64,000 nucleotides of DNA from Acetobacteraceae bacterium B3987. Its GTDB lineage: Bacteria; Pseudomonadota; Alphaproteobacteria; Acetobacterales; Acetobacteraceae. The position numbers and the translations under genes are program-made. The stretch is taken from contig JAFNMF010000029.1 in assembly GCA_026537415.1 (NCBI GenBank), positions 90,593 to 154,592 on the forward strand. The letters run 5' to 3'. A model generated the notes under the pieces. The model searched no databases. It was not told the origin of the DNA and saw only the letters and a program-made list of their open reading frames with translations. Positions 1 to 10,266 of this stretch are shown here, in pieces (position 1 is the first letter of the stretch; each line of letters begins with the position of its first letter).

Positions 1-105
1 GCAGCGGCGACCTGCCACCTCGCCAATCCCACCAAAGACCGCCAGCTGACCGGCGTCATTCTCGTAACCTTCAGCGATGGAAGCACGGACTATGCCCAGT
101 TCTGA
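1..105 (+). CDS. Phage baseplate/tail protein, C-terminal fragment
   Basis: The first reading frame is open from the window edge to a TGA at 103-105 and gives 34 residues ending in DGSTDYAQF. Only the C-terminus is present, so the family cannot be named. Its position directly upstream of, and overlapping, the baseplate J gene suggests a small baseplate component of the gpW/gp25 or late-control kind. That is inference from gene order in contractile-tail phages. The stop overlaps the start of the next gene, which points to translational coupling within one late operon. Confidence 0.5.
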   Translation, partial: AAATCHLANPTKDRQLTGVILVTFSDGSTDYAQF

Positions 106-1318
106 CGCCACAACCAATGTCCCGGCTCCCTCCCTTACCGAGGCAGGCTTTGTAGCCCCTTCGGAGCAAGACATCCTTTCCGGCGTTCTGGCCGACATGA
201 ACGCTGCCCTAGGTGGGGGTGCCAACACGGCCCTTTCCACACCACAGGGGCAGATCGCCCTTTCTGAAACTGCCATTCTGGGTGACTTTCTGGGGGCGAT
301 GATTGCCGTCTTCAATGGCGTGGACCCCGCCTCTTCCTCTGGCCGGATGCAAGATGCCATCGGGCGCATCTACTTCATGGAACGCAGGGCCGCCACAGCA
401 ACGACCGTCACGGTGCAGGCCAGCGTGAACGCTCCCGGCCAGACCATCGCAGCGGGAACAGTCGTAGCGCAGGGCAGTGATGGGAACCTCTACATAGCCC
501 CGCAGGCCGTCACGCTTCCCCAAGCCAGCACGGCCAACTTTGACCTTGCCTGTCAGACAACGGGGGCCATCACATGCCCTGCCAACAGCCTGACGCTCTA
601 TCAGGCCGGGTTAGGGCTGGCCTCACTCGCCAATGCTGCCCCCGGAGCCACAGGGGCCGAAGCCGAAAACCGCACCGACTTTGAAGCACGGCGACAGGCT
701 AGCGTGGCGGCCAACAGCATCGGGCAGAATGCTTCCCTCATGGGGGCTTTGCTGGAGCTGCCCGGTGTGACTGATGCCTTTGTGACGGACAACCCATCCC
801 CAGCCGATGTTGTGCAGCAGGGCGTCACCATCCCGGCATACAGCCAGTATGTCCTTGTCGAAGGGGGCGACCCAGAAGCCATCGGGCAGGCCATCCTTCA
901 TAAGAAGCCACCCGGCATCCCAACCACAGGGGCGCAGAGCATCACCGTGCAGGATACCAACCCCGTCTATGCCGGGAACCAGCCATCCTACAGCTTCAAT
1001 TATGACCGACCGACGCCTGTGGCGGTGCATGTGGTCATGGAGATTGCAGCCTTGGACACGGTGCCATCCAATGCGGCACAGCTCATCCAGCAGGCCATTG
1101 TCTCTTACCTGACAACCGGGGAAAACCGCATCCGGCTAGGCAAGACCATCTATGCCTCCCGCTTATCCGCCGTGGTGGATGGTCTGGGTGATTGGGCCGA
1201 GGTGCTGACACTGACCATCGGCACGGATAGCAGCGCAGGACAGAACCGGCTTACCTTGCCGATCAACCAGCTTCCCACCGTGACGCCCGATACAGTCAAC
1301 GTGAAAGTGGTTCTATGA
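92..1318 (+). CDS. Phage baseplate assembly protein J (gp47/J-like)
   Basis: This 408-residue protein looks like a baseplate J/gp47 family wedge protein, which joins the baseplate to the tail of contractile-tail phages. The N-terminal part has the FVAPSEQDILSGVLADMNAA type of opening and the middle has the GAEAENRTDFEARR segment typical of the family. Its length is normal. An in-frame ATG also exists at 77, but the ATG at 92 has GGAAG about nine bases upstream and is preferred. The gene overlaps the preceding one by 14 bases and the next by 4 (ATGA), so the tail genes are translationally coupled. Confidence 0.85.
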   Translation: MPSSDATTNVPAPSLTEAGFVAPSEQDILSGVLADMNAALGGGANTALSTPQGQIALSETAILGDFLGAMIAVFNGVDPASSSGRMQDAIGRIYFMERRAATATTVTVQASVNAPGQTIAAGTVVAQGSDGNLYIAPQAVTLPQASTANFDLACQTTGAITCPANSLTLYQAGLGLASLANAAPGATGAEAENRTDFEARRQASVAANSIGQNASLMGALLELPGVTDAFVTDNPSPADVVQQGVTIPAYSQYVLVEGGDPEAIGQAILHKKPPGIPTTGAQSITVQDTNPVYAGNQPSYSFNYDRPTPVAVHVVMEIAALDTVPSNAAQLIQQAIVSYLTTGENRIRLGKTIYASRLSAVVDGLGDWAEVLTLTIGTDSSAGQNRLTLPINQLPTVTPDTVNVKVVL

Positions 1319-1911
1319 TCGACATTCGGGAAACCATCCTTGCCCAATATGCCAACAGCCCTGCCCTGACCGGCATTATCGAGCGGTTCAATGCAGCGGC
1401 GGACCCTCGCCGAATCATTGATCTATTTCTGCATGATGTCTGGAATCCCCTCACCGCTACCGGATGGGGTCTGGATGTATGGGGCCGGATTGTCGGGGCC
1501 GGGCGTGTCCTGAAGATCGACACCGTTGGTTATTGGGGTTTCTCACAGGGCTACCCTTCATCCCGCACCTTCGGGGAAGGCATCTGGTATTCCGGGCAGG
1601 CCGCTGCCAGCAACTACGCTTTGAGCGATGAAGCCTACCGGCAACTCATCTTCGCCAAGGCGGCGGCCAATATTTCCGATGGCTCCATCGCCGACATCAA
1701 CCGGATTCTCATGATCCTGTTTGGCAATAAGGGCCGCTGCTACGTCGCTAATACGAGCGACCATACCATGATGATCGTCTTCTCCTTCCAGCCTACGCCA
1801 GTGGATGTTGCCCTCATCGCCTCCGGCGTTCTGCCTCGCCCTTCCGGGGTGAAGTATCGCTACGCCTTCATCCCTCCCACGGAAAATGATTTCGAGAATG
1901 ACATCCTATGA
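1315..1911 (+). CDS. Phage tail protein, DUF2612-like
   Basis: This 198-residue protein follows baseplate J and overlaps it by four bases. It shows the pattern of DUF2612/tail-protein-I-like proteins: an N-terminal helix with QYANSPAL, then WNPLTATGWGLDVWGRIVG, then a central LSDEAYRQLIFAKAAANISDG segment and a C-terminal VLPRPSGVKY strand. In related phages this gene sits between the baseplate wedge and the tail fibre and probably links the two. It overlaps the fibre gene downstream by four bases. The family call is from memory of the motif pattern; the tail role is supported by gene order. Confidence 0.75.
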   Translation: MIDIRETILAQYANSPALTGIIERFNAAADPRRIIDLFLHDVWNPLTATGWGLDVWGRIVGAGRVLKIDTVGYWGFSQGYPSSRTFGEGIWYSGQAAASNYALSDEAYRQLIFAKAAANISDGSIADINRILMILFGNKGRCYVANTSDHTMMIVFSFQPTPVDVALIASGVLPRPSGVKYRYAFIPPTENDFENDIL

Positions 1912-2864
1912 AGAGTTCTGATCTCCCCACAAAGATCGCCGTCCCCTTCGCCCAGAATGCAGGCTTGTCCTACCGGCGGGACGTTCCCCTGCAAAGCAGC
2001 GATGCCGGGGCAGCCTCTTTCATGCTGGGCTTCCCGCCGCTGACCTTCCAGCCCACAGGGGCGGGCGGCTCGCCCGTGGATGGGCGGGACATGAATGGCA
2101 TCCTGTATGCGCTTTCCTCCATTGCCCGGTCATGGTGTGCAGGCACTACACTGACCTTCGATCAGAGTTTCGCTCAGGCCGTTGGCGGCTACCCTTTGGG
2201 GGCCGTCCTGCGTTCTGCCACAGATCCAACCATTCTTCTCATCAGCCAGCGGGACGCCAACCAGACAGACCCGGCAGATGATGCAGAAGAAGCCCTCTGG
2301 AAGCCCATCGGGGCCGGGACCCTTACCTCTGTGGCGCAGTCCCTCGCTGGCAAGGTAAGCCGGACAGGCGACACCATGACGGGCAGCCTGTTCATGACAG
2401 GCACCTACAGCCTCAATGGCGGCCTTGCGACCGTTCCCATTGGGGCACAGATGGACCAGACACAGATCTATCTCCAGCTGGCAAAAGGGACCGATAATAC
2501 GATCTCGGGTACCCTGACCTTCCGGGACAGCAGCGGCGGCTACCATGACGTTCTGACCGTCACCCCTCGGGGCAACATCCTGTCCGTAAGGGGAAACCCC
2601 TTCCTTGAAGTCGGCTCGAACAGCGACCAACCCATGCGGATGGAGGCTTTCACAGCCATTGCCGATAGCGGGCAGCGTGTGACCTTTCCGAAAGGGTTTT
2701 CTGGAACACCCGTTAGCATCATCGTCAATGCGCTTGAAGCTAACTGGAGCTGTGCGGCGGCTGAAGGCACATGGGCCGCTGATGGCTTCACCATAACCAG
2801 CTATGCCACCAACACAGCAGGCAGACCCCAAAAGATTTCCGTCATGGCCGTGGGGCCTGTGTGA
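1908..2864 (+). CDS. Phage tail fibre protein
   Basis: This 318-residue protein opens with a stretch typical of the virion-anchoring part of tail fibres (FAQNAGLSYRRDVP, then GGSPVDGRDMNGILYALSS). A central strand-rich region contains SRTGDTMTGSLFMTG, a common fibre motif. The C-terminal 75 residues (about 244-318) have the pattern F-x-(9-10)-FPKGFSGTPVSIIVNA and resemble the ends of the proteins at 2872 and 6873. They are probably a receptor-binding domain. Translation couples to the previous gene by a four-base overlap. It is most likely a short tail fibre at the baseplate rim. Confidence 0.75.
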   Translation: MKSSDLPTKIAVPFAQNAGLSYRRDVPLQSSDAGAASFMLGFPPLTFQPTGAGGSPVDGRDMNGILYALSSIARSWCAGTTLTFDQSFAQAVGGYPLGAVLRSATDPTILLISQRDANQTDPADDAEEALWKPIGAGTLTSVAQSLAGKVSRTGDTMTGSLFMTGTYSLNGGLATVPIGAQMDQTQIYLQLAKGTDNTISGTLTFRDSSGGYHDVLTVTPRGNILSVRGNPFLEVGSNSDQPMRMEAFTAIADSGQRVTFPKGFSGTPVSIIVNALEANWSCAAAEGTWAADGFTITSYATNTAGRPQKISVMAVGPV

Positions 2865-2871
2865 GGACAAG

Positions 2872-4878
2872 ATGACAGCCCAAAACACAACGCCTAATTG
2901 GCGTTCCTACACCACCACCGGCAACCCGGTTGATATTGTTCCGTCCCCTACCGTGGCGAAGGCCATCGGACAAAAGGTTGATGCTCAGAACGGGCAGGCC
3001 GAAGGGTTGGCTCTGGATGGCACCACGACCCTCTCCGGCCTGACAGTGGACCGGGTATTAGGCAGGTTTTCGACCCTGCCTGTAACGGATTTCGGCGTTG
3101 TGGATGACCCGGACGGCCAGCATGTCGACGACAATACAGCCGCCTACCAGACCGCCCTTGATGCCTGTGCGGGGCAGCATCAGCTTCTGCATCCGGCGGG
3201 TCTTTCCGTTGTGCTGCACAATATCCAGATCACCAAATCGGACACGATCCTGATTCTGGATGGCAGCCTCACCCTTGCCCCCAACAGCAACACGAACTGT
3301 CTGGACATTTACGCCCCCGGCAAAACGCTTGAGCGCATCTCCATCACGGGGCGGGGTGTCATTGATGGCAATGGCTCCAACCAGCAGGGGGGCCAGACAG
3401 CCGTAGCGGGCGGCATCTGTGCCAACACGCTCAGCCATACAGGCAACACACCGGATGATCCGGCTTCCCCGACACTCATCGACAGCCTTCTGATCTCAGG
3501 TATTACGATCAGAGACACCTTCAACTGGCCGATTTCGCTAGGTCATATCAGCAACAGCCTTGTTTCCGGGGTAACGCTACTGAATGGCGGGAACTCCCCA
3601 CAATTCATCTGGTCCGCTGATAATTGCTGGTTCAATGATAGCGTATCGGCTGGCCATACGGATGGCGGCTTTGTCTTCTACATGGGATGCCGAAAATGCG
3701 GGGCATCCGGCAATAGTGTCTATGGCAACCATGACGGGATCGGGGTTTATTCCGACGCCTCCAGCCAGCCGGCTAATGATGGAATCATCATTTCCGGCAA
3801 CCACGTCCACGATAACCGAGATAACGGCATCGGCATTACCACAATGGTGCAGACTTCCGCCGCCATCACGCAGCGAAACATTCTGGTTACCGGCAATACC
3901 CTGACCAACAACAACACGGGTGGCCGCAATGGTGGTGGGTCCATCGGCATTGTAGCTGCCTATGGGGTCAGGGTTTCAGGGAATAGGGTTACGCAGGACG
4001 GGTCAACCACAACCAGCGGGCAGCCCGTTTACTCGCTCTATGTGTCGGATAGCTGCCAGAACATCGTTATAACGGATAACAGCTTCGAAAATGTAGGAAG
4101 CCAGACGAACCCCGGAACGGCCATTTACATTAACAAGGCATCTGGCTGTTCCATCCAGAACAACACGATTGCCGATAGTGGTGGGGCTTCTGGTGTAACA
4201 CGGGCAGGCATTGGTGGTATCCTCGGGCCACGCTGCATTATGGGTGGGAACATCGCATTAACGCCACTGAGCGGCTCTCTTCTATCCCTGCAATGGCCTG
4301 ATGATGCGGTATTTCTGGGACAGCCGGACGGCAATGGCGGGCAGAGAAATAACCTGTCCCTCCTCACCCAGCTTACAGTGGGTGGCGAATACACCTACAA
4401 CAACCAGACCCTTAGTCAGCCGGTTGCAGCTTCAGCATCTGACGGGCTGTTTTCCTTTCAGGCAGTGCGAGGCAGCACGGACGCCCTGACAGGGGGCCGC
4501 TTCGTGCTTCAGACCAAGGCGGGCCTGTACCGGCAGTTTGTCATGTCCGGCGATGGGGCACTGTCAAGCCCGGTTGGCACATTGCTGGCAGGCGACAGAG
4601 GGGCCAACGGGCTTCCGCTCTATGCCCAGCGGTTCACAGTCCGGGCGGGGCACGGGGACTTTGTGGCCTTCCCACGGGCCTTTGCTACGAACGACGTGTC
4701 AGTGTTCGTGGCTCCGTCCTTTGATGGAACCAACATGCAGCTTGCCGGTTCCTCGACGGTCTCACCCCCTACTCAGTCTGGATTCACGCTTGGGAAATAT
4801 TGGGTTGGCGGCGGCGGGGCTAATGTAGCACCGGCTGGGAAAGTAACCATCCTGGCCATAGGCGAGATCTCACCCTGA
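2872..4878 (+). CDS. Phage tailspike with parallel beta-helix (pectate-lyase-like fold)
   Basis: This 668-residue protein has an N-terminal FGVVDDP...DDNTAAYQTALDAC segment, which matches the start of pectate-lyase-3-type right-handed beta-helix domains. It is followed by many short Asn/Gly-rich rungs with repeated ISGNHVHDN-like turns (about residues 190-460), the hallmark of phage depolymerase spikes. The C-terminal 85 residues carry the FTVRAGHGDFVAFPRAFA domain shared with two neighbours. The start at 2872 is chosen because TGAGGA, overlapping the previous stop, is a good ribosome-binding site; an upstream ATG at 2803 lies inside the preceding gene. It probably binds or cuts a surface polysaccharide; no catalytic residues can be assigned. 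Confidence 0.8.
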   Translation: MTAQNTTPNWRSYTTTGNPVDIVPSPTVAKAIGQKVDAQNGQAEGLALDGTTTLSGLTVDRVLGRFSTLPVTDFGVVDDPDGQHVDDNTAAYQTALDACAGQHQLLHPAGLSVVLHNIQITKSDTILILDGSLTLAPNSNTNCLDIYAPGKTLERISITGRGVIDGNGSNQQGGQTAVAGGICANTLSHTGNTPDDPASPTLIDSLLISGITIRDTFNWPISLGHISNSLVSGVTLLNGGNSPQFIWSADNCWFNDSVSAGHTDGGFVFYMGCRKCGASGNSVYGNHDGIGVYSDASSQPANDGIIISGNHVHDNRDNGIGITTMVQTSAAITQRNILVTGNTLTNNNTGGRNGGGSIGIVAAYGVRVSGNRVTQDGSTTTSGQPVYSLYVSDSCQNIVITDNSFENVGSQTNPGTAIYINKASGCSIQNNTIADSGGASGVTRAGIGGILGPRCIMGGNIALTPLSGSLLSLQWPDDAVFLGQPDGNGGQRNNLSLLTQLTVGGEYTYNNQTLSQPVAASASDGLFSFQAVRGSTDALTGGRFVLQTKAGLYRQFVMSGDGALSSPVGTLLAGDRGANGLPLYAQRFTVRAGHGDFVAFPRAFATNDVSVFVAPSFDGTNMQLAGSSTVSPPTQSGFTLGKYWVGGGGANVAPAGKVTILAIGEISP

Positions 4879-4901
4879 CATTATCTGGCTCTCTAACCTT
4901 G

Positions 4902-4930
4902 AAACCCTCCCCCGATCGGGAGGGTTTTTT
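4902..4930 (+). terminator. Rho-independent terminator after the tailspike gene
   Basis: AAACCCTCCC at 4902-4911 pairs perfectly with GGGAGGGTTT at 4918-4927 around a six-base loop, followed by a T run to 4930. It ends the baseplate-tailspike transcription unit and separates it from the GH32 cassette. Confidence 0.9.
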
Positions 4931-4984
4931 ATGGCCACAACCCTCCTCCGTGAGGGGCAAACCACTCCTCACAGGGGAAGGCTG

Positions 4985-5290
4985 ATGCCTTCCATTCTCC
5001 AACAATACCGAGAGATTTTTGTGACTGACACCATACCAACCGCTCTGGCCTCGCTGAACGGGGCCGGAGGCGTGCGGGCTGGGGACCTTGTGCAGGTTTC
5101 TGCACTGAATGCCCCCCTGCCCGACAGTGAGGTTACGGGCATCGTGCGTGTGGACGTGTTCGAAACTGACTGGAGCGACTACGGTCGCGCCTGCCAGATG
5201 ATGCGTCTATCCGCTCTGTCCCAGACATTACGCAACTGGGCACGCGAGGCACAACGTGCGTCCCATCAAGCTGCAGGAGTACCATCATGA
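4985..5290 (+). CDS. Small unknown phage protein upstream of GH32 enzyme
   Basis: This 101-residue protein matches no family I recognise. It begins MPSILQQYREIF and is mixed polar with no membrane segment or signal peptide. The ATG at 4985 is preferred because AGGGGAAGG lies just upstream. An in-frame ATG at 4931 falls immediately after the terminator T run and has no ribosome-binding site. The stop overlaps the start of the GH32 gene (ATGA at 5287-5290), so the two are translationally coupled and may act together, for example as an assembly chaperone or virion adaptor for the enzyme. That role is inference. Confidence 0.6.
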   Translation: MPSILQQYREIFVTDTIPTALASLNGAGGVRAGDLVQVSALNAPLPDSEVTGIVRVDVFETDWSDYGRACQMMRLSALSQTLRNWAREAQRASHQAAGVPS

Positions 5291-6864
5291 CGCCTGCACA
5301 AGTCCTTAGTGAAGCCAACACATTAGAGCGTGTCCTGCCTACAACACGCTATTACCCGCTCCGCCATATGGCGCCCTACCCGGTGAAGGGAGGAACCAGC
5401 TGGCAGAATGATGGGCAAAATTTTGTATTTGACCCTTATTCTGGCCTATGGCGCACCTGGGCCCTAGGCAATCCTGATTGGAAGCCAGCTGACGGGTTTC
5501 CACAAACAAGCTGGATTGAATATGCCGGCCCGGCCCTCGACCAGATGGTACCCTTAGGGGTCCGGCTGGACAGAGCAGACTATTCAGCTGACATTTATAC
5601 ATCTGGTTCTGTCTTTGTGGATTGGCACAACAAGCTAGGGCGAGGCCACGGAGCCGCTTGGTACTTTGTTGCTACCCTCTCTGCCGAGCATTTACAGGCA
5701 CTCATGCTGCTAACGGCTCCAGCCCTTGGCACAACTCCACATGTACAAGGTATCGTCATTCCCAATGATGCCGTTCCGCCAGACCAGCGAGGGCCGGGAC
5801 TGGATCTGCGTGATTGCCGGGTATTCTGGGACGATGCACATGACCAGCTAGTGCTCTCGGCCACCTGCGGGGCAAAATTCATATTTTTCGCCTCAACGGA
5901 CGGCTTCAACTGGCGGTATCTCTCCACATTGGCCGGCCCCGGCCCACTAGTGGAATGTCCGAACATGCTGCAAGTGCCATTGCACGATGCTAACGGTTCA
6001 CCCACCGGGAAAACACGCTGGGTGATTCTGGGTGCCGTGCAGGGGACCTGGTCAGGTGCCACGGACAGTTTTGAATGTTGTGCTGTCTGGGTCGGTAACT
6101 GGGATGGTACTACCTTCACCCCGGATGCAGGATATCCATTGCCTGTTGATTACGGGCCGGACAGCTATGCCAGCACGACCGGCACGGACCATCTTGGCCG
6201 ACCCTTCATGGGATATTGGCTGGGCAACTGGGAATATTGCACCAGGGTAATGCCTTTTGAAGGCTTCCAGAACATTCAGGGCCTACCACGCCAGTGCTGG
6301 TTACAGCCTGATTCCTCCGGCGTTGTGCGGCTCTTTTCTGCACCTCTGGAGACCGATCTGGATGCTTATAGCACCAGCTACGCAGGCAGTCACCAGACTC
6401 TGGACAGCACAACGGCGTATGCATGGCCAAACCAGGCCATCCCAACTGGGAAATGCGCCCGGGTGGATATCACTCTGGAGCGGATTGGCGAAAGCTGGCC
6501 AGAAACCATCACGTTGCAACTGCGTGCAGGAACGGTCAACGGACAGTCCTTCCATACCGACTTAACCGTAAATGGAACGACGGGAACGGTCATTCTGGAC
6601 CGCTCCAAAGCTGGCTCTGAAGGACCTGCTGCACCTGTGCCTGCCTCTTGGACACGCCCTTACACCATGCCAGCCAGTCTGGGCGTAACGAGCGGCAAAA
6701 CCATTACCTTGAGCGTGCTGCTGGATAGCTGCTCGGTCGAGGCATTCATCAATGGGGGACTAGGCAGCATGGCTGCGCTGATCTTCCCCCCTGACACCTG
6801 CCAGGGTCTCTCCCTGACAGCGAGCGGAACGGTTTCTGCCACCGCAACAATCCATCATTATTGA
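5287..6864 (+). CDS. Glycoside hydrolase family 32 enzyme (fructanase/levanase-like) in phage tail cassette
   Basis: This 525-residue protein has the ordered motifs of GH32. WQND at residues 39-42 corresponds to WMNDPNG with Asp42 as nucleophile. YTSGSVFVDWHN near 104-115 corresponds to the FSGS...D motif. RDC at 175-177 corresponds to RDP, and ECP at 223-225 carries the acid/base Glu223. The C-terminal beta-sandwich ends with SCSVEAFINGGLGS...IFP, the usual GH32C pattern. There is no signal peptide, so the enzyme is either built into the virion or released at lysis. Flanking genes are phage tail and fibre-like genes. The likely substrate is levan or another fructan of the host capsule; that is inference. 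The Pro-to-Cys and DPNG-to-DGQN changes are unusual, and the exact substrate (levan, inulin or sucrose) cannot be read. Confidence 0.85.
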   Translation: MTPAQVLSEANTLERVLPTTRYYPLRHMAPYPVKGGTSWQNDGQNFVFDPYSGLWRTWALGNPDWKPADGFPQTSWIEYAGPALDQMVPLGVRLDRADYSADIYTSGSVFVDWHNKLGRGHGAAWYFVATLSAEHLQALMLLTAPALGTTPHVQGIVIPNDAVPPDQRGPGLDLRDCRVFWDDAHDQLVLSATCGAKFIFFASTDGFNWRYLSTLAGPGPLVECPNMLQVPLHDANGSPTGKTRWVILGAVQGTWSGATDSFECCAVWVGNWDGTTFTPDAGYPLPVDYGPDSYASTTGTDHLGRPFMGYWLGNWEYCTRVMPFEGFQNIQGLPRQCWLQPDSSGVVRLFSAPLETDLDAYSTSYAGSHQTLDSTTAYAWPNQAIPTGKCARVDITLERIGESWPETITLQLRAGTVNGQSFHTDLTVNGTTGTVILDRSKAGSEGPAAPVPASWTRPYTMPASLGVTSGKTITLSVLLDSCSVEAFINGGLGSMAALIFPPDTCQGLSLTASGTVSATATIHHY

Positions 6865-6872
6865 GGTTTATT

Positions 6873-7523
6873 ATGAGCGACTTTACGCCTGGCCTTCCCA
6901 CCAAGAAAACACTCGTCTTTGTGGATAATAACGGCAACCGTTTTTCTACAGACATTGAAGTCAATCCCGGTGCCCCCGGCGCAGGAGGGACTGGTGGTGG
7001 TATCTCCCCGAATGGCGGAACAATCTCCGGAAACCTGGTCCTGGACGCTGGCAACGATGCCACGCCCTGGAGCGTTACCCCGCAAAACATCCTGCGCGTC
7101 GGCGACCACGAGGCGCATATTTCCGGCCAGATGACTGGCGAAGGAGACCTGCAGGTCCTGCTCGGGGTGGACAATTACGCCCCATGGGTATTCCGCCCGG
7201 GCAAGCATCTCATTTTCACCCCGACCGGGAATACTGTGGTTGAGGCGAACGATTCCGCCACAGCCCCGGTCCTGATCCAGCGTTTCAGTGTTACGGCAAA
7301 GAACGGGGATTATGTAGCATTCCCCAAAGCCTTCAGCAGCGACACCGTGCGAGTGATTGTGCCCTCCTATTTTGACGGCACGAGCTTTGTTCTCGGTGGG
7401 ACAGACCGCCAGAAACCGACTGACCGCAACGGCTTTACGCTAAGCAAATGGAGTGCTGGCCCGAACCCGGGCTGGAACAATTACGCCGATACAATGGACA
7501 TTATTGCCATCGGAGCTGGCTAA
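6873..7523 (+). CDS. Short tail-fibre-like protein with shared C-terminal domain
   Basis: This 216-residue protein has an N-terminal strand (PTKKTLVFVDNNGNRF), a Gly-rich linker near residues 35-50, and a C-terminal domain from about residue 134 (FSVTAKNGDYVAFPKAFS...GFTLSKW...IIAIGAG). The C-terminal domain closely matches the end of the tailspike at 2872-4878. The ATG at 6873 follows TGAGG at 6862-6866 and is chosen over an upstream TTG. It sits nine bases after the GH32 stop, so it probably belongs to the same cassette. It may be a receptor-binding or host-attachment subunit paired with the enzyme. Confidence 0.7.
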   Translation: MSDFTPGLPTKKTLVFVDNNGNRFSTDIEVNPGAPGAGGTGGGISPNGGTISGNLVLDAGNDATPWSVTPQNILRVGDHEAHISGQMTGEGDLQVLLGVDNYAPWVFRPGKHLIFTPTGNTVVEANDSATAPVLIQRFSVTAKNGDYVAFPKAFSSDTVRVIVPSYFDGTSFVLGGTDRQKPTDRNGFTLSKWSAGPNPGWNNYADTMDIIAIGAG

Positions 7524-7531
7524 TCTATCAG

Positions 7532-7580
7532 TGCCTCAACCGAGGCAGTGGCTGGCCCTGCCACTGAACAGGCAGGGCCA
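7532..7580 (+). terminator. Tandem hairpins ending the GH32 cassette
   Basis: Two hairpins follow each other. TGCCTC/GAGGCA lies at 7532-7547, and a perfect ten-base-pair stem TGGCCCTGCC/GGCAGGGCCA lies at 7553-7580. The sequence after the second stem is pyrimidine-rich but lacks a long T run, so termination may be partial. With the terminator at 4902 it brackets the GH32 cassette. Confidence 0.6.
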
Positions 7581-8149: not shown

Positions 8150-8452
8150 ATGACTGACCAATTCCCAACCCCTCCGCCCTTCACACCACTGAATGAGCGC
8201 ATTGCAGCGTTGGAGGCCGTGCAGGCCCGTCATGATGACGACATCACGAAGCTTTCCGACAAAATCGACAATCTCGCCCGAGAGCAACGTGCTGGATTGG
8301 AGGCATTAAGCGATCAGATTGCTTCAACCATCTCCACCCGCTCCCAACTCATTACCGCTGCCATTACCGGCAGTGCAGCTTTTGGGGGCGGTGTCGCAGT
8401 GGGGCTGTATCAACTCCTCCACACACTTAACCCCCATCTATTCGGAAGCTGA
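8150..8452 (+). CDS. Coiled-coil plus C-terminal membrane helix protein, holin-like
   Basis: This 100-residue protein has a Pro-rich start, a heptad-rich helix from about residue 15 to 62 (NERIAALEAVQARHDDDITK and onward) and one hydrophobic C-terminal helix near residues 68-90. The layout resembles XhlA-type haemolysin/holin accessory proteins, which help release phage endolysin. It lies between the spanins and a virion/lysis protein, which supports a lysis role. No catalytic motif is visible. It might instead be a tail-tip membrane-associated protein. Confidence 0.5.
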   Translation: MTDQFPTPPPFTPLNERIAALEAVQARHDDDITKLSDKIDNLAREQRAGLEALSDQIASTISTRSQLITAAITGSAAFGGGVAVGLYQLLHTLNPHLFGS

Positions 8453-8453
8453 T

Positions 8454-8876
8454 ATGACACCCCGAGGCATCCGCAATAACAATCCGGGGAACTTGAACTT
8501 CGTCCATCAACCCTGCGCTGTTCTGGAACCCGGACCCAATGCCCGCTTTGCCCGTTTCTCCACGCCGGAAGACGGGCTTGCCGCCCTGCGTGACCAGCTT
8601 TGCCGCTACATCCTAAAGGATGGCATCGACACGGTAATGAGCATCATCAGCAAATGGGCACCACCAACCGAGAATGATACTGCCGCCTATGTCCGGGGCG
8701 TAGCGCACTCTCTGAATGTCGAACCGGATGCACAACTAGGCCAGCCTACACCCCATCTCATTGGCGGCCTGATGAACGCCATCATCCGCTTTGAGAACGG
8801 CCAGAACCCCTATGGGAGGCTAGTTGAACAGGTGGCGGCATCTTCTCCCTCATCTCACCATGATGCGACAGCCTGA
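8454..8876 (+). CDS. Phage virion/lysis protein of the GIRNNNPGNL family
   Basis: This 140-residue protein begins MTPRGIRNNNPGNLNF, the signature of a family often annotated as phage structural protein P5-like and found in lysis cassettes of alphaproteobacterial phages. The following FARFSTPEDGLAALRDQLCRY and WAPPTENDTAAYVRGVA segments fit the same family. It may be a peptidoglycan-acting enzyme or a virion protein; I see no certain catalytic residue. The ATG at 8454 follows GGAAG and lies two bases after the previous stop, indicating coupling with the holin-like gene. Confidence 0.65.
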   Translation: MTPRGIRNNNPGNLNFVHQPCAVLEPGPNARFARFSTPEDGLAALRDQLCRYILKDGIDTVMSIISKWAPPTENDTAAYVRGVAHSLNVEPDAQLGQPTPHLIGGLMNAIIRFENGQNPYGRLVEQVAASSPSSHHDATA

Positions 8877-9648: not shown

Positions 9649-10266
9649 TTAAGACCGATAGCTGAAGCGTGGCAACGTCCAGTTATACCGAATGGAAAGC
9701 AGGCGGAAGCTGATGCCAAAGACCATAGAGACAATCAGCTCTATGGTGCTGTTATCCACGATGTGGGAGCAGCACAGAAACACAACGCCCGTACTGACAG
9801 AGACCGTGCCATATAGCTCGGACCGGAACAGCAAGGGAATATCGTTGCAAAGTATGTCCCGCAGCACCCCGCCCATGCACCCTGTAATCATGCCAGAAAT
9901 GATGACACAGACCACGGACAGATGTTCCGTCATGGCGACCTGACAGCCCATCACGGTAAAAACGACCAGCCCAATGGCATCCAAAAACAGAAACAACTTG
10001 CGCAGCCTGTGCATGTGCTGGGCCACCATAATGGTGGCCAGCGCAGCAAACCCGGTAATCAGCGGATAGCTGGGATGCTTCACCCAAGAGAGAGGATAAT
10101 GGTTAAGCAGCACGTCACGAATGGACCCGCCACCCAGAGCCGTAATCCACCCCAGCAGAAACACCCCGACAAGGTCCATCTCCAGCTTTCCGGCCAGTAG
10201 AGCAGCGGTCATAGCTTCGGCAATGATGGCAATAATATACAGCGTGGTATAAAGATCGAAATTCAT
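9649..10266 (-). CDS. TRIC/UPF0126 (YicG-like) cation channel family protein
   Basis: This 205-residue membrane protein has about seven helices made of two similar halves, each with a Gly-rich motif followed by Arg-Asp: TALGGGSIRDVLL near residues 42-54 and CMGGVLRDIL near 128-137. This is the bacterial relative of trimeric intracellular cation channels (UPF0126). It probably conducts monovalent cations across the inner membrane; the physiological role in bacteria is uncertain. An AGG about nine bases upstream supports the start. Confidence 0.85.
   Translation of the reverse strand: MNFDLYTTLYIIAIIAEAMTAALLAGKLEMDLVGVFLLGWITALGGGSIRDVLLNHYPLSWVKHPSYPLITGFAALATIMVAQHMHRLRKLFLFLDAIGLVVFTVMGCQVAMTEHLSVVCVIISGMITGCMGGVLRDILCNDIPLLFRSELYGTVSVSTGVVFLCCSHIVDNSTIELIVSMVFGISFRLLSIRYNWTLPRFSYRS

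Follow-up and report, generated by a model that had tools for sequence, protein, structure and literature searches.

A gene for a glycoside hydrolase of family GH32 lies between the tail and lysis genes of a phage-derived element in Acetobacteraceae bacterium B3987, a bee-associated acetic acid bacterium whose genus is Bombella and whose genome spans 2.04 Mb (assembly GCA_026537415.1; G000 below). The window that was analysed is a stretch of 64,000 nucleotides of contig JAFNMF010000029.1 (C26 below), positions 90,593 to 154,592, and coordinates are those of the window unless a contig or locus is named. The GH32 gene is the middle member of a three-gene cassette, and its product is hypothesized to act at the tip of a contractile tail. 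The features of this region are as follows.

77..1318, plus strand: baseplate J-like protein (PF04865, phrog_6)
1315..1911, plus strand: DUF2612 protein (PF11041; phrog_587, structural protein)
1908..2864, plus strand: tail fibre (phrog_12796 over residues 1-170)
2872..4878, plus strand: beta-helix spike, likely start 2872 in frame 2803-4878 (PF13229; phrog_2234 tail spike, 2.5e-4)
4901..4930, plus strand: terminator-like hairpin at the spike/cassette junction (11-bp stem, 6-nt loop, T run)
4985..5290, plus strand: adaptor-like protein of 101 residues, homologue of the C-terminal part of the adaptor at locus L037
5287..6864, plus strand: GH32 enzyme of 525 residues (open frame; Pfam, PHROG and PDB sequence match)
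6873..7523, plus strand: short fibre ("partner") of 216 residues, with an N-terminal PG...PGAPG domain and a C-terminal tip domain of about 85 residues
7553..7580, plus strand: terminator-like hairpin 3' of the cassette (scan and fold)
8454..8876, plus strand: endolysin, likely start 8454 in frame 8319-8876 (phrog_873, 5.1e-43)
9649..10266, minus strand: host gene at the right edge of the element, matched in 11/11 Bombella genomes

The GH32 gene starts with an ATG that overlaps the stop codon of the adaptor-like gene by 4 nt (ATGA), and the partner gene begins 8 nt past the GH32 stop codon. In Pfam, the enzyme matches the catalytic domain PF00251 over residues 37-341 (9.4e-22; 78.4 bits against a curated cut-off of 22.1) and the C-terminal domain PF08244 over residues 381-517 (4.5e-16; 59.7 bits against 21.9). 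It also matches PHROG 21583 "levanase" over residues 16-512 (4.7e-25), a family categorized as "moron, auxiliary metabolic gene and host takeover", and its closest PDB sequence is that of the LevB1 endolevanase (9h8i, 3.1e-22). These matches are far beyond chance; those in NCBIfam all fall below their cut-offs (TIGR01322, 30.6 against 356.4 bits). Pfam gives the two GH32 domains alone, and no beta-helix domain was found in the protein. In the alignment the catalytic triad is filled by D42 (WQNDGQN), D176 (LRDCRV, in which the proline of the RDP motif is replaced by cysteine) and E223 (VECPNML). No signal-peptide-like stretch was found in the first 45 residues, where the maximum 11-residue hydropathy is 0.16 compared with 2.02, by the same measure, for the host chromosomal GH32 protein (L003).

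An earlier note on this DNA had described a 525-residue GH32 protein with the nucleophile aspartate and the SGS, RD and EC motifs, lacking a signal peptide and encoded among tail and lysis genes, after a beta-helix spike and before a fibre-like gene. That description holds, with SGS at residues 106-108, the baseplate J-like, DUF2612, fibre and spike genes upstream and the endolysin gene downstream. For the fibre-like gene at 6873-7523, PHROG gives no match and Pfam none above cut-off, yet its family and the spike have homologous C-termini (hhalign probability 97.6, E 2.7e-12). One C-terminal tip domain is common to the products of 1908-2864, 2872-4878 and 6873-7523. The 101-residue adaptor-like protein has no Pfam or PHROG family above cut-off.

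Related genes were sought by a GH32 search of 397 genomes of the family, with up to three candidates scored per genome, so that counts are lower bounds. At least 62 of the 397 genomes have a GH32 match, many at about 30% identity over the C-terminal two thirds and resembling the host copy on contig C28. G000 itself has three GH32 genes, on C28, on C21 and in the window. Three tail-type classes were distinguished. Class A (about 30% identical to the window protein) comprises the C21 gene of the same genome and genes of B. intestini (G118), B. favorum (G170), Saccharibacter (G101), Neokomagataea anthophila (G054) and the IMG/VR contig L056. Class B comprises the window gene and those of B. mellum (G296, locus L036; 44-46%) and G070 (locus L037; 47-48%). 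Class C consists of fused proteins, one in G054, two in G131, which belongs to the genus of G054, and one on the IMG/VR contig L082. The triad is complete in all 11 class A-C rows used in the alignment, and motif variants include WQNDGQN in the window protein and ET instead of EC in class A. The earlier note had proposed looking for GH32 neighbours in other Acetobacteraceae prophages, and such genes do recur there. The tail-associated GH32 module is real and recurrent.

The order adaptor, GH32, partner fibre is found at seven loci (the window, L035, L037, L038, L039, L040 and L056), each time with an overlap between the adaptor and GH32 frames, 4 nt long in six and 8 nt long in one. At an eighth locus, L043, the adaptor motif precedes a broken GH32 gene: this class A gene of N. 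anthophila (L043:9109-10733) is split into two frames, and the same genome holds an intact class C fusion. A tail-fibre-type N-terminus was found in four of the six class A adaptors (that of L043 was left out of this comparison): those of L035 and L040 by PHROG matches (tail-fibre PHROGs and phrog_12796, respectively), and those of L038 and L056 by their identity to the L035 adaptor (74% and 72%). The L039 adaptor has no PHROG match. Its last 63 residues are 84% identical to those of the L035 adaptor, and the N-termini of the two are different; L039 adjoins phrog_684, phrog_212 and phrog_394 genes, in our judgement a podovirus-like set, and L035 and L040 adjoin baseplate wedge genes (phrog_6). 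A profile of the C-terminal 60 residues of class A adaptors matched five of the 397 genomes, at one place each and always directly before a class A GH32 gene. Four of these matches had supplied rows of the profile and the fifth (G054) was new, and this profile search of the 397 genomes found no adaptor C-terminal motif without an adjoining GH32 gene. We infer from these sequences that the C-terminal stretch of the class A adaptor may bind the enzyme and its N-terminus the tail. The evidence for docking in class B, drawn by analogy, is thinner than that in class A: the adaptors of the window and of L037 are 34% identical over 82 residues (E 3e-7), and the N-terminus of the latter resembles the N-terminal domain of the partner (probability 93, E 2.8e-7).

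In class C, a gp48-like baseplate domain and GH32 share one frame, at three loci in two genomes (G054 and G131) and on L082. Two of these proteins, each of 668 residues, match the baseplate wedge family phrog_203 over residues ~5-167 (1e-22 and 1.3e-24) and the PHROG levanase family over residues 186-633 (3.6e-67 and 1e-68). Alignment shows this layout for L082 too (60% identity over query residues 1-666). The L082 protein was searched against 377 genomes, again with at most three candidates scored per genome and counts as lower bounds. Among the matches listed, the whole fusion occurs in only three places (G054, G131), the gp48-like part without GH32 in at least 32, and GH32 without the baseplate part in many; with the fusion in three places and the baseplate part alone in at least 32, GH32 was added to the baseplate protein. 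The GH32 part of class C is 36-38% identical to Bacillus phage levanases. A gp48-like baseplate stretch without GH32 also lies at C28:466218-466664 of G000, probably in a third phage region of that genome.

A phylogenetic tree was built from 32 GH32 rows selected from the matches, of which one host row (L070) lacks its N-terminal part and nine have skewed composition. Each of the three classes is monophyletic (support 100/99 for A, 100/100 for B and 100/99 for C). Classes A and B are joined, together with host genes from G116 and G029, on a branch (100/99) that excludes the host invertases and the Bacillus phage levanases, and class C groups with a GH32 gene of G389 (99/97) that has a GH68 gene about 2 kb away. 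A common origin of all tail-type GH32 genes, as a clade of A, B and C, was rejected (p-AU 5e-54), which under this model implies two or more arrivals of GH32 in tails. Descent of the window gene from a host invertase was likewise rejected, its branch being distant. Two GH32 genes outside phage genes (L041:9488-11014 and L042:9523-11055) group weakly with class B (81/73), and the GH32 protein of G116 has a glutamate at the nucleophile position.

The element that carries the window cassette is about 29 kb long and occupies one locus in 10/11 Bombella genomes. Upstream of the window it encodes a repressor with an S24 peptidase domain, terminase subunits, portal, head protease, cement protein, sheath and hub, along with a capsid protein of weak match. 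The sheath gene is found in 10 of the 11 genomes (75-91% identity in the nine others, with a second copy in G273). The left flank (aldo-keto-like, dinB-like and repressor genes, names judged from sequence) is the same in 10/10, and the right flank lies on the same contig in 7/10. In the eleventh genome, G032, a fragment amounting to 21% of the repressor sits between both flanks, a site that by its sequence is a deletion scar. The ratio of nonsynonymous to synonymous substitution (dN/dS) between G000 and G118 is 0.03-0.18 for 14 element genes, compared with 0.00-0.03 for three flank genes, and higher values occur in other pairs (G317-G273: protease 0.48, o232 0.26). The element genes are under purifying selection. 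Across 45 non-independent pairs, four element genes and two flank genes diverge in parallel at the amino-acid level (r 0.93). The exception is G334-G296, where the element differs by 4.4% and the flanks by 12.7%, a pattern that suggests exchange.

A search for tyrosine integrases (PF00589), with serine recombinases and transposases outside its scope, gave no match on C26 and three elsewhere; one match lies at the end of the class A prophage contig C21. No shared 12-mers that could mark att repeats were found between the two end stretches compared. The earlier note had called the element a prophage. Its genes are indeed phage-derived, but it is an old, fixed element, kept at one locus in 10/11 Bombella genomes without a detected tyrosine integrase, and from its genes it resembles a domesticated particle of the PBSX or gene transfer agent (GTA) kind. 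The DUF2612 protein diverges more between elements than its upstream neighbour, and the variable tip region therefore begins at about this gene. The GH32 gene is a strain-specific part of that variable tip. In Saccharibacter, tail genes related to those of the Bombella element are present; head and terminase genes were not found there in the stretch examined, and sheath homologues occur in 50/397 genomes of the family, so a fixed element is claimed for Bombella only. In Saccharibacter (L040 and L113), four neighbouring places match a hub-like gene and alternate with m174-like genes on the opposite strand. Just before the window, inside the tail cluster (L034:6974-9840; C26 ~87566-90432), the minus strand encodes small proteins with secretion-like N-termini, several of them conserved in other Bombella elements; three that were tested have no Pfam match.

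The signals around the cassette were also inspected. The stretch 4895-4935 folds with -20.4 kcal/mol, and its hairpin (4901-4930) was not among the sites of the terminator scan. Hairpin 7553-7580 is weak evidence by itself, since 11 terminator-like sites were counted in 10 kb and 7.8 on average after shuffling. Upstream of the cassette, a scan for sigma-70-like promoters, which is blind to other types, found none.

The sugar enzymes of the hosts bear on the likely substrate. GH68 levansucrase (PF02435) was found in none of the 11 Bombella genomes, G000 included, nor in G101 or G070, compared with 52/397 genomes of the family that have a match. There are three matches in G054 (one with an internal stop) and four in G131, so both class C genomes have GH68. 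Six of the seven genomes with class A or B genes lack it, the exception being G054, which also has class C. The class C enzymes plausibly act on levan. Host-made levan as the target was rejected for this host, and the earlier note's premise that the host makes levan is not supported. Judged from its sequence, the window enzyme could act on levan made by neighbours or on another fructose-bearing sugar. The Bombella analysed in PMC9147383 are reported to have an extracellular GH32 invertase with a twin-arginine translocation (TAT) signal, and those tested grew on sucrose.

We propose, with a probability of roughly 0.58, that the window GH32 protein is by analogy a tail-tip component of a contractile-tailed, phage-derived particle, cutting a fructan or a fructose-bearing surface sugar. 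The enzyme would be made together with the small adaptor-like protein and the short fibre from closely coupled genes, would sit near the baseplate as part of the tail tip, and would clip a fructan (levan being the best guess) or a fructose-bearing surface sugar so that the tail could reach the cell beneath. A tail role is suggested by the anatomy of the cassette and by the gp48 fusions, both through analogy to relatives; incorporation into particles, substrate and use are what we infer. Given the age and conservation of the element, in which no tyrosine integrase was detected, a temperate phage of the ordinary sort is less likely than a device that the host keeps for killing or for carrying DNA. 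Since Bombella lacks levansucrase, the target sugar would probably belong to other bacteria or to a shared matrix. The earlier note had the phage use the enzyme against a levan capsule or biofilm: a role on the virion is favoured by analogy with the cassettes and fusions of relatives, and a levan made by the host itself is not supported.

Several observations weigh against a place on the tail. No virion anchor was found on the GH32 chain, in which 36 residues precede the GH32 match and which is separate from the other proteins. Compared with its L037 homologue, the window adaptor is missing the N-terminal domain, and a comparison with class A adaptors found no homology (probability 3%; missed by the C-terminal profile); docking in the window thus rests on analogy. 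In the surroundings of L037, two neighbour proteins have no PHROG match to mark a phage setting. The B. mellum gene of class B (L036:8938-10892) lies outside phage genes, has a 111-residue partner alone and is flanked by autotransporter-like and fumarase-like genes (names judged from sequence). Of seven elements compared whole, only that of the window carries GH32 and the other six lack it. The hairpin at 4901-4930 sets the cassette apart from the upstream spike, as in a moron. The Mu gp48-like Pfam match of all three class C proteins (28-29 bits) is below the cut-off of 37.4, and their GH32 part is a separate lineage, so the fusions bear on the window by analogy only.

Other explanations share part of this evidence. 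The product may be a soluble levanase freed at lysis, off the particle, that loosens the matrix around freed particles, as has been proposed for the capsule-degrading enzymes of Bacillus phage phiNIT1. A chain with neither an anchor nor a signal-peptide-like stretch would suit such a role, as would the PHROG family shared with phage levanases; a review (PMC6966330) states that LevP is not a tailspike and that its companion enzyme PghP is burst-released. We consider this unlikely for a gene that is placed between spike and lysis genes, overlaps an adaptor-like gene, is followed by a fibre with the spike tip domain and has relatives fused to baseplate proteins. The levP-type genes of three Bacillus phages, by comparison, lie amid sigma-factor, nuclease and hypothetical genes, away from tail genes. 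The Bacillus phage levanase named in the earlier note is real (PMC4595243 and PMC6966330). An auxiliary metabolic gene (AMG), adding a sucrose or fructan hydrolase that feeds the host, would fit the sugar-rich niche, the moron/AMG category of the PHROG and the hairpins on both sides, and GH32 in three Bacillus phages was so named in 2015 (PMC4595243, in the part accessible). The Bombella analysed in PMC9147383 are, however, already reported to have an extracellular TAT-type invertase, those tested grew on sucrose, G000 has its own copy on C28, the window enzyme lacks an export signal, and the cassette travels with tail-type genes; a feeding role is therefore very unlikely, and the comparison suggests a tail-borne fructan cutter over a food gene.

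It is also doubtful, if conceivable, that the substrate of a tail-bound enzyme is, instead of levan, a surface polysaccharide containing fructose, from Bombella or from a neighbour. The lack of levansucrase in 11/11 Bombella genomes, the separation of the A and B branch (100/99) from invertases and Bacillus levanases, and the motif variants noted above (the window's WQNDGQN and the class A change of EC to ET) point in that direction; the PHROG match and the best PDB sequence match, both levanases, point the other way, and we know of no such polysaccharide in Bombella, though no search was aimed at one. Least probable of all is a passive remnant, stranded in a decaying element and no longer made or used. 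The undetected tyrosine integrase, the orphan copy in B. mellum and the one broken class A copy would agree with decay, against which stand the open frame, the filled triad and the dN/dS of 0.03-0.18 (G000-G118) in neighbouring element genes.

Beyond the proposed tail-tip role, a wider scheme is offered tentatively, as a possibility with the odds against it. Bombella would keep a domesticated contractile particle at one site and swap its tips, and the GH32 of this tip would be directed, in nectar and hive, against competitors or recipients with a coat of fructan, since the maker itself lacks levansucrase. Phages of acetic acid bacteria would have recruited GH32 into tails at least twice, as docked subunits and by baseplate fusion. 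If the enzyme is on the particle, fructan matrix would count among the barriers that phages target in acetic acid bacteria, and a Bombella particle that is found across the genus and can exchange its tips would, if real, offer a testable means of competing or of transferring genes in flowers and hives.

By its anatomy, a tail-associated GH32 in a host-kept element appears to add a further form to the known phage depolymerases. Such enzymes are usually looked for among tail proteins with a beta-helix. Three depolymerase-search protocols include levanases among their targets (PMC9700779, PMC13385381, PMC13123978); in their accessible parts the first two also require a predicted beta-helix, and the passage of the third shows no such demand. 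Adaptor-docked or baseplate-fused enzymes of another fold would be missed where a beta-helix is demanded. Among hydrolases, the SP10 levanase is named in a review on enzymes associated with virions (PMC5380687). Neither "GH32" nor "levan" occurs in the main text of two papers on prophages and CRISPR of bee bacteria (PMC10259446, PMC12282179), and no virion-bound GH32 or Bombella phage-like particle was found in a literature search that left most subscription journals and supplements outside. Short-pattern scans of IMG/VR found no near relatives of the window or L037 proteins. In four E. coli phage records (ON470589, ON470594, ON470608, ON470622), one gene carries the annotation beta-fructofuranosidase or sucrose-6-phosphate hydrolase; in three of the four it lies no more than about 90 bases from a record end, and this may be host DNA. 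Fecal "Bacteriophage sp." scaffolds with GH32 were not used, the three inspected being marked UNVERIFIED.

Among known systems, the window enzyme is close to the LevP kind of Bacillus SPO1/NIT1-like phages, with which it shares GH32 domains, triad, phage encoding, PHROG 21583 and the lack of a signal peptide. It differs in sequence (23-25% identity), in its separate branch and in lying between spike and lysis genes, unlike levP, which is away from the tail module. Beta-helix tailspike depolymerases resemble it in the proposed tail-borne cutting of polysaccharide and in the tip domain common to the partner, whereas the window enzyme is GH32 by family and a separate chain. The class C fusions likewise place GH32 at a phage baseplate in Acetobacteraceae; they differ in being one fused chain with its anchor, in their GH32 lineage, and in the three and four GH68 matches of their genomes, unlike Bombella. 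The extracellular invertase of Bombella (PMC9147383, accessible part) shares the GH32 family, and the host copy on C28 is signal-bearing, 30% identical over 350 residues and on a distant branch. PBSX and the GTAs combine chromosomal structural, packaging and lysis genes with vertical descent and purifying selection. The Bombella element, known here from its genes alone, is like them in having such structural, packaging and lysis genes, in its vertical descent and in its purifying selection, and no tyrosine integrase was detected on its contig.

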